A DNA stretch of 64,000 bases, from the NCBI GenBank assembly GCA_016649715.1, contig JAENXC010000013.1, positions 1 through 64,000 on the forward strand. The letters are read 5' to 3'. The notes below the pieces were generated by a model. It was not told the origin of the DNA. It saw only the letters and a program-made list of their open reading frames with translations, and did not search any database. Shown one piece after another: positions 5,352-20,594 of this stretch (position 1 is its first letter; the number at the start of each line of letters is the position of its first letter). The position numbers were made by a program, and so were the translations under genes. The stretch comes from Flavobacteriaceae bacterium. GTDB lineage: Bacteria; Bacteroidota; Bacteroidia; Flavobacteriales; Flavobacteriaceae.

Positions 5352-6407
5352 ACTCTTCTGTTCCTTGTTGAAATACACCAAATAATAATACATCTGCTTT
5401 TCCTCATCCCACCCTTTTTCAATAAATTTATCCGCACTTTCCGAGTTGATGAAATCCAGTTTTATTTGGATATTGGTATCGAGGTTTATCACGTTTTTTA
5501 TTTTTTTCCGCGCTGCGGTAACGGCTGTGTTGGCGATGGGAAAAGTGGTTAAATCCTCAATGCTGTACTTGGGCGCTTTTTCACTTTTGTAGTGTCGGAA
5601 TTCTGGAAACATATCCGGATTGTCAATGACATCATTCATAAAAGCAGTTTCCTCAAAATTGTCGTTTTTGGCGAAATGGTTCACGGCGCGGTTCATAAAC
5701 ATAACCTCCTGCTTTTTGTCCTCCGCGGGCAAAACCACGTCTTTGGCGAAATCCTGACAGAATTTTAAATACTTTTTTGTGTAGAAATTATCGTCCGCAA
5801 ATGCTTCCACGCCAAGGAAACTTTCCAGCCAATAGCGTGCATCGTATCGATTGCTGTCCACCGAAAGGATTTTATAGCCTTCCTCTTTTTTTGAATTGAA
5901 AATGATGCAGCCTTTGTCCAATTTATTAAGGTTCACGCCGTGTTGCAACATAGCTTCCAGTTGGTTTGCAGCTTCGGAAAACTGAAGAAAATCCTGTTTA
6001 AGTTCACTTTTAAAAATTCCGATGGCGTCCATTTTCACATTGTCAAGTTGCACGTTTTCAAGATAGGCTACATAGACCTCGCCGCTTTTAATATGAGGAT
6101 GCTCGGACTGATTGTAAAGATAGGTCGCCATTTTGCGACTCTCTTCGTGAATGTTTTGCGGATTGTCAAAAATTAGCGACGCACTGTTGAAAAGTTCGTG
6201 AAACTCCAAATCGGCTTCGTGCGAAAAGCGGAAGTAGTTTTCTTCCTTGTCGCGAAACGGTTTCAGAAAAAACTCTTTCAGCAAGGGCGTAATTTCATCG
6301 TCCATTTTATAGGGTTCCGCAGAAAGAAAAATAGCTTCGTTCCTACTTTTGTTACCCACTCGGTGAATGGAAAGGGAGGCGATGTGGGTATTGAAAAGGT
6401 TGATCAT
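5349..6407 (-). CDS. Nucleoid-associated protein, NdpA/YejK family
   Basis: The 352-residue protein matches the 37-kDa nucleoid-associated protein family (PF04245), whose E. coli member YejK binds the chromosome; the molecular role in flavobacteria is not established. Visible family traits are the N-terminal segment with the IASLSIHRVGNK motif, the conserved central region GEVYVAYLENVQLDNVKMDAIGIFKSE written in family style, and the length. It is predicted cytosolic with no signal peptide. It stands alone between two heptamer arrays, so it is probably transcribed by itself. Confidence 0.88.
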   Translation of the reverse strand: MINLFNTHIASLSIHRVGNKSRNEAIFLSAEPYKMDDEITPLLKEFFLKPFRDKEENYFRFSHEADLEFHELFNSASLIFDNPQNIHEESRKMATYLYNQSEHPHIKSGEVYVAYLENVQLDNVKMDAIGIFKSELKQDFLQFSEAANQLEAMLQHGVNLNKLDKGCIIFNSKKEEGYKILSVDSNRYDARYWLESFLGVEAFADDNFYTKKYLKFCQDFAKDVVLPAEDKKQEVMFMNRAVNHFAKNDNFEETAFMNDVIDNPDMFPEFRHYKSEKAPKYSIEDLTTFPIANTAVTAARKKIKNVINLDTNIQIKLDFINSESADKFIEKGWDEEKQMYYYLVYFNKEQKS

Positions 6408-6414
6408 TTATTTT

Positions 6415-6448
6415 TGTTAATTGTTAATTGTTAATTGTTAATTGTTAA
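6415..6448. repeat. Heptamer tandem array (TTGTTAA)
   Basis: About five perfect TTGTTAA units lie immediately upstream of the nucleoid-associated protein gene. Confidence 0.92.
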
Positions 6449-6467
6449 GAGTTATGATAAGTATTTT

Positions 6468-6551
6468 ACTACCGACTACCGACTACCGACTACCGAGAAC
6501 CGAGAACCGAGAACCGAGAACCGAGAACCGACTACCGACAACCGACTACCG
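6468..6551. repeat. Heptamer tandem array (ACTACCG / AGAACCG)
   Basis: Twelve seven-base units: four ACTACCG, five AGAACCG, then ACTACCG, ACAACCG and ACTACCG. The array ends two bases before the stop codon of the neighbouring minus-strand gene. Confidence 0.95.
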
Positions 6552-6553
6552 AA

Positions 6554-7066
6554 TCAATTCCAGTTTTCGTCAAAATCGAGGTTGTCGTAATCTTCCGGAT
6601 CTAGGTCGAATTCTTCTTCGAAATCGTCATCTTCGATATCCTCGGCTATAAATTCCTTTTCGGGTGCGTCTTCCGGTATTTCGCCGTGGGCGAACATTAA
6701 ATTTGGATAAATCTGGCCGGTTTCAGCTTCGACAATATCAGCCAGTTCCACCATAAATGTCCACATATTCAGAAAATCGTAAACGTAGAGAAGGCGTGTT
6801 TTTTCTTCGTCAACCACGTCTTCTATATAAGTTTCGCCCATAATGCGTATTCCGTCCGGCTCATCGCTTACGTCAAAAAGGGAAATTTCTTCACCTTCTT
6901 CCCATAAATCGTTGGTTATATAAAAGGAAGCCATTTCCTGCCCATCAAAGCCAAAGGATTGGGTTATAGCGTTGTGAAAATCTTCTAGCGTGCCCGAAGC
7001 TTCTATTTCGATGTCGCGGAAAACGTCTTCGTGGGTGTCGAGGATTATTCTGAAACGGTAAATCAT
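6554..7066 (-). CDS. pRiA4b ORF-3-like protein (IS1096 TnpR-like fold family)
   Basis: The function is not established. The 170-residue protein opens with MIYRFRIILDTHEDVFRDIEI, followed by a segment resembling the plasmid pRiA4b ORF-3-like domain (residues about 1-110; LEDFHNAITQSFGF is typical). The last 45 residues are almost wholly acidic with aromatic residues (DDDFEEEFDLDPEDYDNLDF). Despite the family's historical association with plasmid and insertion-element passenger genes, no transposase or terminal repeats are visible, and chromosomal copies are common in Bacteroidota. The stop codon is two bases from the ACTACCG array. Confidence 0.82.
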   Translation of the reverse strand: MIYRFRIILDTHEDVFRDIEIEASGTLEDFHNAITQSFGFDGQEMASFYITNDLWEEGEEISLFDVSDEPDGIRIMGETYIEDVVDEEKTRLLYVYDFLNMWTFMVELADIVEAETGQIYPNLMFAHGEIPEDAPEKEFIAEDIEDDDFEEEFDLDPEDYDNLDFDENWN

Positions 7067-12819: not shown

Positions 12820-13689
12820 ATGTCTAAAAAAATTCACGTTGGCTTTTTGCTTTCCTATGATTACGAAAACCTCAAAAAAGCCATTCCGCCGGTTTATGAT
12901 GATGCCGATGCTATTTTTATAGCTGAAGACAGGGAATACAGAACTTGGTCTGGCGAAAAATTTGAGGTTTCCCCTTTGTTTTACGAATGGTTGAAAGAAT
13001 TCGACACCGAGAAAAAAATCCAGATTTACAAAGACGATTTTTACCTTCCCGAACTTTCAGCAATAGAAAACGACACGCGTGAACGGACGCTTCTTTCAGA
13101 AAAAATGGGTGTCGGCAATTGGTTGGTACAAGTGGATGCCGATGAATATTTTATCGATTTTAAAGGTTTTGTAAAAACCCTTCGGAAGTACGATAGTTTT
13201 TTAAAAAATCCAGAGAAAACGCCTGTGCAGATTGCGGGGTTTCTTATAAATATGTACAAATACACCGATGATGGTTTGCTGTATGTGGACAACCCCACGA
13301 AGGTTTTATTGGCTACCAATTACCCAAAATACACCTTTGCGCGCCAAAATAGGAAACGCATTATTTATACCGACAACCTTTTGATGCACGAATGTATCTC
13401 CCGCAGTGAAAAGGATTTGATGACCAAACTCACAAATTGGGGCCATTCCAAGGATTTTGATATTGAAAAATACGTTGAAAAATGGCGTTCGGTGAATAAA
13501 GATAATTACAAGGAAATGCAGGATTTTTTCTACCTGCAGCCCGAAGGTTGGAAAACTTTGGATTATATCGGTTCAAAAGATATGGATGAAATAAAGAAGC
13601 AATTGAACGCCAAACCCGAATTGCATCCTACAGCGTTTTTTCTTTTTAAAAAGAATATTGGGCAGTATTTTAAACACCTATTCAAATGA
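12820..13689 (+). CDS. Glycosyltransferase-like protein of the surface glycan locus
   Basis: A 289-residue protein without a strong family hallmark. The segment VGNWLVQVDADEYFIDF (about residue 100) looks like a GT-A metal-binding DxD loop preceded by a beta strand, and the N-terminal KIHVGFLLSYDYENLKKAI resembles a nucleotide-sugar-binding start, so it is probably a divergent GT2-type enzyme. It overlaps the next glycosyltransferase by four bases (ATGA), so the two are translationally coupled, and it has a good promoter box 26 bases upstream. Annotation as a hypothetical protein would be equally defensible. Confidence 0.75.
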   Translation: MSKKIHVGFLLSYDYENLKKAIPPVYDDADAIFIAEDREYRTWSGEKFEVSPLFYEWLKEFDTEKKIQIYKDDFYLPELSAIENDTRERTLLSEKMGVGNWLVQVDADEYFIDFKGFVKTLRKYDSFLKNPEKTPVQIAGFLINMYKYTDDGLLYVDNPTKVLLATNYPKYTFARQNRKRIIYTDNLLMHECISRSEKDLMTKLTNWGHSKDFDIEKYVEKWRSVNKDNYKEMQDFFYLQPEGWKTLDYIGSKDMDEIKKQLNAKPELHPTAFFLFKKNIGQYFKHLFK

Positions 13690-14531
13690 AGACTTCCCTA
13701 TTAATTTCAACATACAATTGGCCTGAAGCATTGGAATTGGTGCTTTTGAGCGCCGACAGCCAAACCGAACAACCGGACGAAATTTTAATTGCAGACGATG
13801 GTTCTTCGGAGGAGACAAAACGTTTAATTGAAGATTTTCAAAGGAAATTGAAGGTGCCAATCCATCACTTTTGGCACGAGGACAAAGGTTTCCGAAAAGC
13901 GATTATTTTAAACAAAGCCATTGCCGCCGCAAAGGGTGAATACATTATTCAAGTGGATGGCGATTGCATTATGCACAAGGATTTTGTGAGGGACCACAAA
14001 GCTTTAGCACAGCCCAATGTGTATCTCTTTGGAAGCCGTGTGAACATTCAAGAGGAATTTCTTCCGAAGTTATTCGCTTCGCAAAAGATAAAATTCAATT
14101 TTTTTGACGAAGGCATAAAAAAACGCACCCGGAACCTGCGCTTTCCGGTATTGAGCAATCTTTATAAAACCACCGATGCGGTTTCAGAGAAAATGCGCGG
14201 TTGCAATGTTTCCTTTTGGAGAAAAGATGTGATTGCAGTAAATGGTTACAACGAGGAATTTGAAGGCTGGGGCCGCGAAGATTCCGAGTTGATTATTCGG
14301 ATGATGCACAACGGCGTTTTGGGCAGAAGGCTTCGGTATCGCGGGATTGTGTATCACATTTGGCACAAAGTGAAAGACCAAAGCAGGTTTGAAATCAATG
14401 ACACTTTGCAGGAAAAAGCACTTGCCGAAGGCAGTAAATGGTGTGAAAAGGGGATTGATAAATATTTGTATAAAATATATCTTTTGTCAGGTCGAGCGCA
14501 GGCGAGACCTAAATTTATTATTAAAAATTGA
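13686..14531 (+). CDS. Glycosyltransferase family 2 (GT2 plus C-terminal ED-motif region)
   Basis: The 281-residue enzyme has LISTYNWPEALELVL, the DDGS strand end, HEDKGFRKAIILNKAI, the metal-binding DGDC (about residue 97), and the catalytic-base region FEGWGREDSELIIRM (about residue 198). This is the same subfamily as each half of the two-domain enzyme at 16974. The final 15 or so residues (SGRAQARPKFIIKN) are encoded by a palindromic repeat (AGGTCGAGCGC...GCGAGACCT at about 14491-14513), so the native end was probably slightly earlier. It forms an operon with the preceding gene. Confidence 0.92.
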   Translation: MKTSLLISTYNWPEALELVLLSADSQTEQPDEILIADDGSSEETKRLIEDFQRKLKVPIHHFWHEDKGFRKAIILNKAIAAAKGEYIIQVDGDCIMHKDFVRDHKALAQPNVYLFGSRVNIQEEFLPKLFASQKIKFNFFDEGIKKRTRNLRFPVLSNLYKTTDAVSEKMRGCNVSFWRKDVIAVNGYNEEFEGWGREDSELIIRMMHNGVLGRRLRYRGIVYHIWHKVKDQSRFEINDTLQEKALAEGSKWCEKGIDKYLYKIYLLSGRAQARPKFIIKN

Positions 14532-16163: not shown

Positions 16164-16191
16164 CCATCAACTATCAACTATCAACCATTAT
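16164..16191. repeat. Heptamer tandem array (CTATCAA)
   Basis: Units CCATCAA, CTATCAA, CTATCAA and CCATTAT. The stop codon of the minus-strand glycosyltransferase (TAA, 16188-16190) is inside the last unit. A shorter heptamer run (AGGTTTA, AGGTTTA, AAGTTCA) starts at 16102 over the deacetylase stop codon. Confidence 0.85.
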
Positions 16192-16925
16192 CGCATTCCT
16201 TTCTGCAAAAGCATCAGTTTCACATATCTTGAAAATACTCCATATGCATTTATTACGGATATGGTAAGCCCTGGAACACCATCTTTGTAGCTTCCACGGA
16301 TAATATATGATTTTATAAAGCGGAATGTGGGTTTTATTAAAAGATGGCCCCACGTAACCTTTTTTCCTTTTGCAAAAAGTTGTTCCGCTTGAAACCACGC
16401 GTACGACTCTTTTTTTGATATGTAATTTTGCAGCCCTTTATAGGTGTAATGCTCCACCATTGACTTCAACTTGCCAATAGAGCCTTTGCAGTTCAATTTT
16501 TCGTGAACAAGCCCTGTAAAATGAGCCCCATCGCGTATTACCAATCTTAAAACATCATCGCTATGATGGTATAGAAACCGATCCATAAAGTAATGTGGGA
16601 AATTCAGTTTGTAGCCACCGTGTTTTGGGTTTTCAAGAGTTTTAAGGATTTCAGTTTTCAGCTTTTGTGGAATGCGTTCATCGGCATCCAAAAAAAGAAC
16701 CCAATCTCCCGAGGCTTCTTTTAAGGCAAAATTTTTCTGGTTGGAAAAATTATCGAAGGTTCGTTGAAGGAATTTTGTAGCGTATTTTTTGACAATCTCG
16801 GGGGTTTTGTCGGTGCTGAAGGAATCCACAACAATGATCTCATCAGCGAAAGAAACACTTTTAAGGGCTTCTTCTACGAAAGCTTCTTCATTGAAGGTGG
16901 GGATTATTACCGAAAGTTTTACCAT
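16188..16925 (-). CDS. Glycosyltransferase family 2, WaaE/KdtX-like
   Basis: A 245-residue paralogue of the enzyme at 14578: LSVIIPTFNEEAFVEEALKS, ADEIIVVDSFSTDKT, the metal site DADERIPQKLK (near residue 80) and the C-terminal hydrophobic region FRFIKSYIIRGSYKDGVPG are shared. A TAATTTTG box and TTTG at 21-base spacing lie directly upstream (16931-16963), overlapping the promoter of the divergent two-domain glycosyltransferase. The stop codon falls in a CTATCAA heptamer array. Predicted to act on a lipid-linked core acceptor at the inner membrane. Confidence 0.92.
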   Translation of the reverse strand: MVKLSVIIPTFNEEAFVEEALKSVSFADEIIVVDSFSTDKTPEIVKKYATKFLQRTFDNFSNQKNFALKEASGDWVLFLDADERIPQKLKTEILKTLENPKHGGYKLNFPHYFMDRFLYHHSDDVLRLVIRDGAHFTGLVHEKLNCKGSIGKLKSMVEHYTYKGLQNYISKKESYAWFQAEQLFAKGKKVTWGHLLIKPTFRFIKSYIIRGSYKDGVPGLTISVINAYGVFSRYVKLMLLQKGMR

Positions 16926-16973: not shown

Positions 16974-18614
16974 ATGAACATGCCAGCTATTTCAGTAATA
17001 ATAAGTACTTACAATTCGGAAGAATGGTTACGAAAAGTACTGGAGGGCTACATGTATCAAGATTACAAGAACTACGAGGTAATTGTTGCTGATGATGGTT
17101 CAAAAACCGAAACACGGGAACTTATAGAGTCTTTTCAGAATAAATATCCAGTCCCACTTAGGCATATTTGGCATGAAGATAAGGGATATAGGCGCCAGCG
17201 TATTTTGAATGAAGCTATTCTTAAAGCGAATTTTGAATATATTTTATTTACTGATGGGGACTGCATACCGAGAAAAGATTTCGTTTCGGTACATGCAAAG
17301 TTTGCTGAAAAGGGATACTTTCTTTCTGGGGGCTATTGCAAGTTACCCATGAAAACTAGTGAGGCCATTTCGCAAGAAGATATTGAAACAGAAAATTGTT
17401 TTAATGTGAAATGGTTGAAACAGCACGATAGACTGAAAGGAACACAAAGCTTGAAATTAAACTCAGGCCCAACAGTTGCAACCATTTTGGATTTGATAAC
17501 TCCTACCAATGCTAGTTTCAATAATTGCAACTCTTCAGCTTTTAAAGAAGATCTTTTAGCAATAAACGGATACGATGAGCGAATGCAATACGGAGGTCCC
17601 GACAGAGAGCTTGGCGAAAGACTTGAAAATTACGGATTAAAATCAAAACAGATTCGGCACAAGGCTATTTGCCTTCACTTGGACCATGCCAGGGGATATA
17701 AAACCAAAGAATCTTTGGAACGCAATCTTGCTATTCGCAAGGATACAAAAAAGAGCGAGCGCTATTGGACTGAGCATGGGATTAAAAAAACACCGTCTAT
17801 TTCTGTAATTGTAAGTACATATAATCAACCTGAATGGCTTAAAAAGGCTTTGTGGGGTTTTGAAAATCAGACCCAGAAAGATTTTGAAATCGTCATTGCT
17901 GATGATGGTTCTACTCCCGACACTTTGGAAATGATAGAAACCTTTAAAAAGACATCTCCTCTGGAAATATCACACGTTTGGCAGGAGGACAAAGGATTTA
18001 GAAAGACTATGATATTGAACAAAGCTATTCAAGCTTCCAAAGGGGAATATATTATTTTCACTGATGGAGATTGTATTCCAAAGTATGATTTTGTTGAAAC
18101 CCATAAAAAGAACCGAAAACCAAATTGTTTTCTTTCAGCGGGCTATTTGAAGCTTCCAATGGAGCTTTCAAAAGAAATTTTAAAAGAAGATATAGTTTCC
18201 CGTAAATGCTTTGATCCAAAATGGCTTATGCAACAAGGCCTAAAAAGAAGTTTCAAAATAAACAAGCTAACCTCTAGTGAGGTAAAAGAAAAATTTCTGA
18301 ATGCAATAACTCCTACAAGCCCAACATGGGATGGGAACAACGTTTCTGGTTGGCGCAAAGATATTCTTTCGGTAAATGGTTTCGACGAACGAATGCAATA
18401 TGGTGGAGAGGATCGCGAACTTGGCGAGCGCCTAATGAACAAAGGCATAAAACCTTTGCAGATACGCTATAGTACGGTAACCATACATTTGGATCATCCG
18501 CGTGGGTATGTAACTGACGATATGATTGTAAAAAACAAGGCAATTAGAAAGCAGACCAAGAAGAATAAAAGCGTTTGGACCGAATACGGCATTGAAAAAA
18601 AAGAAGCTCAATAA
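16974..18614 (+). CDS. Tandem two-domain family 2 glycosyltransferase
   Basis: The 546 residues consist of two homologous GT2 modules (about 1-275 and 276-546). Each has an ISVI(I/V)STYN start, VIADDGS/VADDGS, an (H/Q)EDKGFRK-type segment, DGDCIP as the metal-binding DxD, and a DRELGERL region with IHLDHPRGY/LHLDHARGY. The second module has GGEDRELG, while the first has GGPDRELG, so the glutamate of the usual ED motif is replaced by proline in the first. The architecture recalls bifunctional polymerases such as chondroitin synthases, where two modules add alternating sugars, but a simple duplication with one weakened site is possible. A hairpin terminator follows the stop. Confidence 0.92.
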   Translation: MNMPAISVIISTYNSEEWLRKVLEGYMYQDYKNYEVIVADDGSKTETRELIESFQNKYPVPLRHIWHEDKGYRRQRILNEAILKANFEYILFTDGDCIPRKDFVSVHAKFAEKGYFLSGGYCKLPMKTSEAISQEDIETENCFNVKWLKQHDRLKGTQSLKLNSGPTVATILDLITPTNASFNNCNSSAFKEDLLAINGYDERMQYGGPDRELGERLENYGLKSKQIRHKAICLHLDHARGYKTKESLERNLAIRKDTKKSERYWTEHGIKKTPSISVIVSTYNQPEWLKKALWGFENQTQKDFEIVIADDGSTPDTLEMIETFKKTSPLEISHVWQEDKGFRKTMILNKAIQASKGEYIIFTDGDCIPKYDFVETHKKNRKPNCFLSAGYLKLPMELSKEILKEDIVSRKCFDPKWLMQQGLKRSFKINKLTSSEVKEKFLNAITPTSPTWDGNNVSGWRKDILSVNGFDERMQYGGEDRELGERLMNKGIKPLQIRYSTVTIHLDHPRGYVTDDMIVKNKAIRKQTKKNKSVWTEYGIEKKEAQ

Positions 18615-18633
18615 TTATCCAAAAAACTTAAGG

Positions 18634-18654
18634 CGCTATTTTATAGCGTTTTTT
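18634..18654 (+). terminator. Rho-independent terminator
   Basis: CGCTAT / ATAGCG stem with a TTT loop (18634-18648) followed by six T. The convergent heptosyltransferase-like gene ends inside the stem, and the A-run upstream (AAAAAACTTAAGG) could make it work in both directions. Confidence 0.75.
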
Positions 18655-19709
18655 AAATGATGCGCTAAGAAAGGTTTCAGCTTTTTGAAAATTAACGCAG
18701 GAGTTAGCTCGTTATACATTACAGAAGGGTTTTCCTCTATTTTTTTTCGCTCTTCGCGTGTAAACGCTGTGTATAAATTAGGTTTTTCTTCCAAAAGATG
18801 AATGGATTCGTGCTGGATATGATCTTCAAAACTGCTCCAATCTTCTTTTTCAATATAAGGGGAATATACCGTAAAAGTAGGTTTGTGTAATGCTTTGGCA
18901 ATGTGTACGCTTCCACCTTCATTAGCGATTAGCATATCACACTTGTTCATCAATTTTATAAAACCTCGGATGGAATCTTCATAAATATCCAAATCTATTT
19001 GCGCTTTGTTTTTGCATAACCCATAAATTTTTAAAGCTTCCTCTTTTTGGTTTGGTGCATAATTGAAAAGTATTTTTGCTTTGTAATTTTCGGCGATATA
19101 ATCTATCATTTCTGCAACGTATGGGTACGGCATCGATTTTTGTGGCGTGCTGCCCAATACTCCCAACATAATTACGGGAAGGTTTTCGTTATTGGGAAAC
19201 TGATATTTTTTTTCTTCATCGGTTAAATAAATCAATGGCTCATATGCAGGGCTGGGAATTGGAAAAACCGAATGCACTAGATTCAATCTATTTTCAATAG
19301 CTTTGCCGCAGAACATAGTGTGGCGCGGAATGTAATTGATAGGATGCGAATAAAAAGGTAGACGTAATTTCTTTTTAATTCTTTTAAAACCGATACGATA
19401 TTCGGCCCCAGAAAGCAAACAGATCATTCTACTTTGAAACTTAGAATACGGATCAAAAATGATATCGTATTTTTCCTTTTTTATTTTTGAAATGGTCTGA
19501 AATAGTTTCGTAAGTTTCTTTAGTTCCTTTTCCTTTACAGAAATAACGCGATCTATAAACGGATTGTTTTCCAAAACACCTGCGGTATACTCATATACAA
19601 AATAGGTTACTTCACTTTCGGGAAAAACCTTCTTTATATTATTGGCAATAACGGAGCTGATGAGCACGTCGCCAATTCTTTTGTTCTGTATTACGAGTAT
19701 TTTCTTCAT
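18636..19709 (-). CDS. Glycosyltransferase family 9 (heptosyltransferase-like)
   Basis: A 357-residue GT-B fold enzyme of the ADP-heptose:LPS heptosyltransferase family. It shows the start KILVIQNKRIGDVLISSVIANNI in family style, a central PVIMLGVLGSTPQKSMPYPY donor-site loop, and the DMLIANEGGSVHIAKAL motif (about residue 270) corresponding to the family's conserved D-x-x-x-x-D/N-x-G region. Many Bacteroidota use such enzymes for core sugars other than heptose. The gene is convergent with the two-domain transferase and divergent from the Kdo-kinase-like gene. Confidence 0.92.
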   Translation of the reverse strand: MKKILVIQNKRIGDVLISSVIANNIKKVFPESEVTYFVYEYTAGVLENNPFIDRVISVKEKELKKLTKLFQTISKIKKEKYDIIFDPYSKFQSRMICLLSGAEYRIGFKRIKKKLRLPFYSHPINYIPRHTMFCGKAIENRLNLVHSVFPIPSPAYEPLIYLTDEEKKYQFPNNENLPVIMLGVLGSTPQKSMPYPYVAEMIDYIAENYKAKILFNYAPNQKEEALKIYGLCKNKAQIDLDIYEDSIRGFIKLMNKCDMLIANEGGSVHIAKALHKPTFTVYSPYIEKEDWSSFEDHIQHESIHLLEEKPNLYTAFTREERKKIEENPSVMYNELTPALIFKKLKPFLAHHLKNAIK

Positions 19710-19795: not shown

Positions 19796-19847
19796 TTTAA
19801 TGAATTACCTTCGCAAAATACCTTTTTTGAATCTATCTTTTTTAAAA

Positions 19848-20594
19848 ATGCGCGAAAATTTTGTTATTCACCCAAACTATTCCCATTTGGCTGCAAAGCT
19901 AAAGGATGTGCTAAACAATTTTTCAATAAAAGGGGAATACGTAACCAAGGGGGAGCGCAATGTTATAAAAATGGTGCAACTGAAGGGCACTTCTTTAAAT
20001 ATTAAGAAGTTTAAAACGCCGAATGCTTTTCAATCCTCGGTTTATCAGCACATTCGGAAGAGCAAGGCAAAACGCTCTTTTGAATACGCTTCAAAATTGA
20101 TTGAATTGGGGATTAACACTCCTTTTCCCGTGGGGTATTTGGAAGTGTTTTCAGGAGGGTTGAAGGAGAGTTTCTTCATAAGTGAGCACATTAACTACGA
20201 TTTCGATTTCCGTGAATTGATACACAATCCGGAATTTAAAAAAAGGAACGAGATTTTAAGACAATTTACCCAATTTACTTTTAAACTTCACGAAAACGGT
20301 GTAAATTTTTTGGACCATTCTCCAGGAAACACCTTGATAATTGAAAGTGATAAAAACAAGTTTGATTTCTATTTAATCGATTTAAACCGGATGCGTTTTG
20401 AACCTATGGATTTTAACGCACGGATGCACAATTTTAGAAGACTTTGGCTTTCTAAAACGATGATGAAGGTAATGGCGGAGGAATATGCCGAGCTTTACAA
20501 CAAGCCCGTGGACGGCACGTATGCGCTGATGTTGCACCACAGTAGGGTTTTTCAGAAGAAGATTAACAGTAAGAAGTTGCGGAAGCGGAAGTAA
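19848..20594 (+). CDS. Kdo-kinase-like protein (lipopolysaccharide kinase, WaaP/InaA fold)
   Basis: A protein-kinase-like fold enzyme expected to phosphorylate a Kdo or other core sugar. It shows the LIELGINTPFPVGYLE segment, SFFISEHI hinge, the catalytic loop GVNFLDHSPGNTLI with Asp and Asn, and YLIDLNRMRF as the metal-binding DLN. ATG at 19848 (MRENFVIHPNY, 248 residues) is preferred: the frame-opening ATG at 19800 would place 16 extra residues over promoter-like DNA (TACCTTCGC). The last 160 bases of the gene are partly duplicated downstream of the toxin-antitoxin cassette (21360-21444). Confidence 0.87.
   Translation: MRENFVIHPNYSHLAAKLKDVLNNFSIKGEYVTKGERNVIKMVQLKGTSLNIKKFKTPNAFQSSVYQHIRKSKAKRSFEYASKLIELGINTPFPVGYLEVFSGGLKESFFISEHINYDFDFRELIHNPEFKKRNEILRQFTQFTFKLHENGVNFLDHSPGNTLIIESDKNKFDFYLIDLNRMRFEPMDFNARMHNFRRLWLSKTMMKVMAEEYAELYNKPVDGTYALMLHHSRVFQKKINSKKLRKRK

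Follow-up and report, generated by a model that had tools for sequence, protein, structure and literature searches.

A fused two-module glycosyltransferase of probable lipopolysaccharide core assembly in Flavobacteriaceae carries a first module of a conserved proline-type subfamily

The window, i.e., the whole 64,000-nucleotide stretch of flavobacterial DNA analyzed here, encodes at positions 16974..18614 (+ strand) a chain in which two homologous glycosyltransferase modules are fused end to end. As read from its sequence, this protein is probably a bifunctional, metal-dependent GT-A glycosyltransferase that would carry out two sequential and separately specific transfers in what is likely to be lipopolysaccharide (LPS) core assembly. 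The proline that replaces a glutamate in the presumed catalytic motif of the first module is, judging from its sequence relatives, the normal mark of an old monophyletic subfamily (P-type), and neither a peculiarity of this gene nor a sign of damage.

The open reading frame (ORF) begins with ATG and encodes 546 aa, of which module 1 (16974..17786, +; aa 1-271) is a P-type and module 2 (17787..18611, +; aa 272-546) an E-type GT2/Glyco_transf_7C domain. Pfam places Glycos_transf_2 (PF00535) and Glyco_transf_7C (PF02709) twice each in the chain, with whole-protein scores of 155 and 50 bits, respectively (curated cut-offs 23.3 and 23). Over 270 aligned positions the two modules share 49.6% identity, with an alignment score of 705 (shuffles: mean -66, sd 17), and both contain DDGS, DGDC, NxNxS or GxNxS, GGxDRELGERL and HLDH. 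In module 1 these are the invariant DDGS (D40-D41; 17091..17102, +), expected to bind the nucleotide; the invariant DGDC metal site at aa 94 (D94, D96; 17253..17264, +); NCNSS (N184; 17523..17537, +), the E-type counterpart of which is GxNxS; GGPDR at aa 207 (P209, D210; 17592..17606, +); and HLDH (H235, H238; 17676..17687, +), the invariant histidines of which are expected to contact metal or substrate. Module 2 has its own DGDC metal site at aa 364 (D364, D366; 18063..18074, +) and GGEDR at aa 477 (E479, D480; 18402..18416, +). Both modules therefore possess a DxD motif and the catalytic Asp of the (E)D motif (D210 and D480), the preceding Glu being Pro in module 1. Similar to other proteins that combine GT2 with Glyco_transf_7C (the beta4GalT C-terminal type), they show DxD, GGxD and HxxH; unlike the usual ED motif of that group, Glu is replaced by Pro in P-type and by Gln in Q-type modules (see below). 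A preliminary description of this DNA had reported two homologous GT2 modules, each with its own DGDC, the first having the motif GGPDRELG and the second GGEDRELG, all of which is confirmed in this ORF, and a single-module relative at 13686, which is equally real: this gene (13686..14531, +) belongs to the S family, an outgroup to the P, E and Q modules, is 34-37% identical and has a GREDSE-type motif. Directly before it lies a gene (12820-13689, +) for a 289-aa protein without a Pfam or NCBIfam match, homologues of which occur in the core loci of several relatives. The possibility that the fusion is a sequencing artefact was ruled out, as two further assemblies, L038 (97% identical) and L045 (94%), contain the same fused ORF.

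The fused gene stands by itself on the + strand, flanked by two genes of the - strand, a WaaE-like GT2 on the left (16188..16925, -; Pfam and synteny), for which "WaaE-like" is a working label based on motif resemblance, and a heptosyltransferase-like GT9 on the right (18636..19709, -; Pfam/NCBIfam and synteny), followed by a Kdo/WaaP-family kinase-like gene (19800..20594, +; Pfam/NCBIfam and synteny). An inverted repeat bordered on either side by A/T runs (18615-18656), perhaps a two-way terminator as judged by eye, separates the convergent fused gene and GT9, and a Gp49/HigB-like protein (PF05973; 20929-21273, -), from a family that includes toxins of toxin-antitoxin systems, is encoded between the kinase-like gene and dapD. 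In most of 79 loci, mainly from Flavobacteriaceae, the same order is conserved (WaaE-like GT2, one or more modules, GT9, near the Kdo/WaaP kinase-like gene), and in most the slot is bordered by pcnB and sua5 on one side and by dapD, yqgF and def on the other. The modules are thus encoded among core-type genes in an arrangement shared by relatives. Between 8 and 28 kb of the window, the neighbors are housekeeping genes and genes for GT2, GT9, Kdo kinase-like and deacetylase-like proteins, and none for polymer export was seen in that interval. On the basis of the neighboring genes, a role of the slot in LPS core assembly is probable. The literature yielded nothing direct on flavobacterial core glycosyltransferases or on the P/E/Q module family; the only related core structure found is that of Capnocytophaga canimorsus, which contains Kdo, two Man, Gal, Rha and GalN (PMC3342949). 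By analogy, Gal/GalN-type residues are plausible in such a core, the C. canimorsus structure itself not identifying the sugars of the fused enzyme.

A two-step enzyme could also serve a glycan other than the LPS core, i.e., a protein O-glycan, a capsule or an exopolysaccharide. The polysaccharide deacetylase-like gene nearby would agree with this, as would the best-scoring named bacterial glycosyltransferase model, the exopolysaccharide glycosyltransferase EpsD (NCBIfam NF041875), but EpsD is a single-module protein, its 171 bits fall far under the 370-bit cut-off, and the constant flanks of GT9, Kdo/WaaP kinase-like and WaaE-like GT2 genes make such a role unlikely. The same flanks bear on the preliminary proposal of an unusual polymerizing or bifunctional enzyme in an LPS core locus, of which the bifunctional, core-related half fits the synteny; the polymerizing half is not supported (see below).

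The modules collected from the 79 loci of the genome collection, and from further loci obtained by whole-genome searches, fall by motif into three classes, P-type (GGPDRE), E-type (GGEDRE) and Q-type (GGQDRE). An IQ-TREE phylogeny of 80 modules recovers a P clade (UFBoot 93) and a joint E+Q clade (100) composed of E (84) and Q (88), with module 1 of the window inside the P clade and module 2 inside the E clade. Orthologues of module 1 retain the Pro, and not an intact ED motif: it occurs in 59 of 60 distinct P-type modules, the remaining one having Ser. Elsewhere the Glu position is occupied exceptionally by Leu in three Winogradskyella E-clade modules, and two Q-clade modules have Glu. GGLDRE was seen in the Winogradskyella E-type modules of loci L048, L050 and L051 (near 6001-6822) and likewise in L133-L135. 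The Asp that follows this variable residue is invariant in all 154 aligned modules (60 P, 57 E, 15 Q and 22 of the S family). Moreover, Pro covaries with six other positions, so that P-type and E-type modules are split at >=90% at seven positions in total: Y72/F342, R74/K344, Q75/T345, C122/L392 (where module 2 of the window has Leu and the clade residue is Phe), D173/N443, N184/G454 and P209/E479. Position 184 is N in 60/60 P-type and G in 57/57 E-type modules. An eighth separating position, I90/I360, is a conservative Ile/Leu difference. These patterns also bear on the idea that the two modules attach one and the same sugar through the same linkage, giving a pair of consecutive identical residues or mere gene-dosage redundancy. 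Half of all residues are identical between the modules, and every motif is common to them except at the discriminating positions; nevertheless, the seven sharply clade-specific positions lie near the motifs, and the P and E clades have been conserved separately over a long time, both of which point to different specificities and render identical transfers rather improbable.

In the homologous GT7 domain of human CHSY3, the motif E806-D807 provides the catalytic base through D807 (PMC12748766), and for this reason D210 and D480 are the expected bases of the two modules, only the residue in front of them varying. The resemblance extends to DxD, H831 and H834 of CHSY3, which differs from the fused gene in being eukaryotic, a GT31+GT7 fusion and the partner of CHPF in a heterodimer (PMC12748766). 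Among the fused relatives (window, L038 and L045), module 1 has a dN/dS of 0.016-0.037 and module 2 one of 0.033-0.052, i.e., both modules are under similarly strong purifying selection and module 1 is not decaying. Modeled alone with AF2 from a 91-row alignment, module 1 folds into a confident GT-A domain (pLDDT 93.4, pTM 0.92), the nearest solved fold being that of the chondroitin polymerase K4CP (TM 0.65-0.70, E about 1e-16); an earlier 75-row alignment, which seemed to place single modules on module 1, was left out of folding. The full-length model, built from a 10-row alignment, is poor (pLDDT 69, pTM 0.52), and its Foldseek hits were excluded from any statement on domain arrangement.

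The preliminary description had called the first motif altered and considered that module 1 might have become a binding domain, in which case it would be a catalytically dead aid to module 2 that holds acceptor or donor. Such a role would agree with the replacement of Glu by Pro in the ED motif and of Gly by Asn in GxN, and it has a precedent in human CHPF, a known partner that lacks DxD and donor-binding residues (PMC12748766). However, module 1, unlike CHPF, has its DxD, and D94/D96, N186, S188, D210 and H235/H238 are all invariant; hence neither the loss of metal and base residues nor the relaxed constraint of a pseudo-glycosyltransferase is found, its dN/dS being as low as that of module 2. 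Additionally, the closed genomes G144 and G145 show a single match each, of P type, so that the occurrence of P without E is real and a P-type module cannot be the mere helper of an E-type partner. With the Asp after Pro, the DxD and both HxxH histidines kept, the first module shows no sign of damage, and its conversion into a binding domain is very unlikely, even though conservation of this kind demonstrates constraint and not catalysis as such.

In many relatives the two modules are adjacent genes, often in the same frame and separated by one stop codon and a few bases. Of the 79 loci, 33 contain a P-type and 24 an E-type gene alone (upper bounds where contigs end near the slot), 11 have separate E and P genes in that order and 8 in the reverse order, 2 have P fused to E (P=E), and one has a P gene next to a fused Q-type/E-type gene (Q=E); at one locus, L058, the modules are separated by the GT9 gene. 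The two-module fusion is typical of the genus of the window (Aequorivita-like), in which 25 of 28 genomes contain a fused pair: P=E in 3 (the window, G894 and G895) and Q=E in 22, with an ambiguous second-module residue in one (L167). A lone E-type gene was found in one genome, and no module match in 2 of the 28. One of the Q=E genomes, G891, has a separate P gene directly upstream, the arrangement also present at L042 (6001-8469), which is a possible intermediate toward the P=E form of the window. In a FastTree phylogeny, the fused E modules form a single clade (0.89) with P=E sister to Q=E.

At the fusion junction (GIKKTPSI; 17775..17798, +), L045 reads CAA AAA ATG where the unfused relative L042 reads CAA AAA AGT AAC TAA ATG, i.e., the TAA stop of L042 precedes a junction ATG that L045 still has. 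From this comparison, P=E looks like the outcome of a 9-base in-frame loss that took out the stop. The first 45 nt of module 2 in L045 are 84% identical to Q and 67% to E, whereas those of the window are equally similar to both, which is only suggestive of a module 2 start derived from a lost Q module. Going by these sequences, P=E could have originated either from a second fusion that followed the loss of Q or from a swap of the first module in an ancestral Q=E gene.

The distribution of the modules is also relevant to the likeness between the fused gene and E. coli K4CP, which likewise has two tandem GT-A modules in one chain and is the closest solved relative of both modules by sequence (PDB 2z86 and 2z87, the best PDB match for the full-length protein and for each module) and of module 1 by fold. 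K4CP combines dissimilar modules, A1 (GalNAc-T) and A2 (GlcUA-T), whereas the fused gene joins two paralogues that are usually separate genes in an LPS-type locus. Since the profiles of both the P-type and the E-type run along A1 (about residues 94-321), but along only the first half of A2, the fusion appears to be a pair of A1-like modules that is not homologous to the A1-A2 pair of the polymerases; two different modules homologous to A1 and A2, as in chondroitin and heparosan polymerases, are not found. Despite the top rank of K4CP among PDB matches, an alternating-sugar polymerase resembling bacterial chondroitin or heparosan synthases, as earlier entertained, is thus highly improbable, given that both modules are A1-like, that they are also found as single genes, solitary, in either order or split by GT9, and that the locus resembles an LPS core locus, with no polymer-export genes seen between 8 and 28 kb of the window.

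The two-step enzyme remains the best-supported reading, because both modules are complete, equally constrained and derived from old subfamilies whose members elsewhere occupy this slot as individual genes, and because the fused pair (P=E or Q=E) has been retained genus-wide. In the proposed mechanism, two paralogous single-module genes lying side by side would have fused end to end, yielding a protein in which each module moves one sugar from a nucleotide sugar onto the growing core, in two successive steps. In module 1, Pro would take the place of the Glu beside the base, which itself is retained, and the coordinated changes at Y72, R74, Q75, C122, D173, N184 and P209 would give it a donor, acceptor or linkage other than that of module 2. 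Covalent fusion would fix a 1:1 ratio and hold both steps together. The activity of each module, the core acceptor, the differing specificities and the benefit of fusion are what we infer from the sequences compared here.

More broadly, and tentatively, the amino acid in front of the catalytic Asp (Glu, Gln, Pro, Leu or Ser) and the six positions that covary with it might serve as a switch of specificity within one family of core glycosyltransferases, the modules of which Flavobacteria would shuffle and fuse in one slot to change the outer core, with the fusion having arisen or been rebuilt more than once in a single genus. The enzyme of this marine flavobacterium is most likely of an ordinary two-step type rather than a polymer-maker or a protein with a dead binding domain. 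The fused gene appears to represent a simple case in which a stop codon was lost between two paralogous neighbors. An apparent defect in a catalytic motif turns out to be a conserved subfamily signature, which cautions against calling such modules dead. Furthermore, the slot offers a natural series in which a single active-site position is P, Q, E, L or S while the base and the chromosomal location stay fixed, and which may be handy for probing the choice of acceptor or donor in GT2/GT7-type enzymes.
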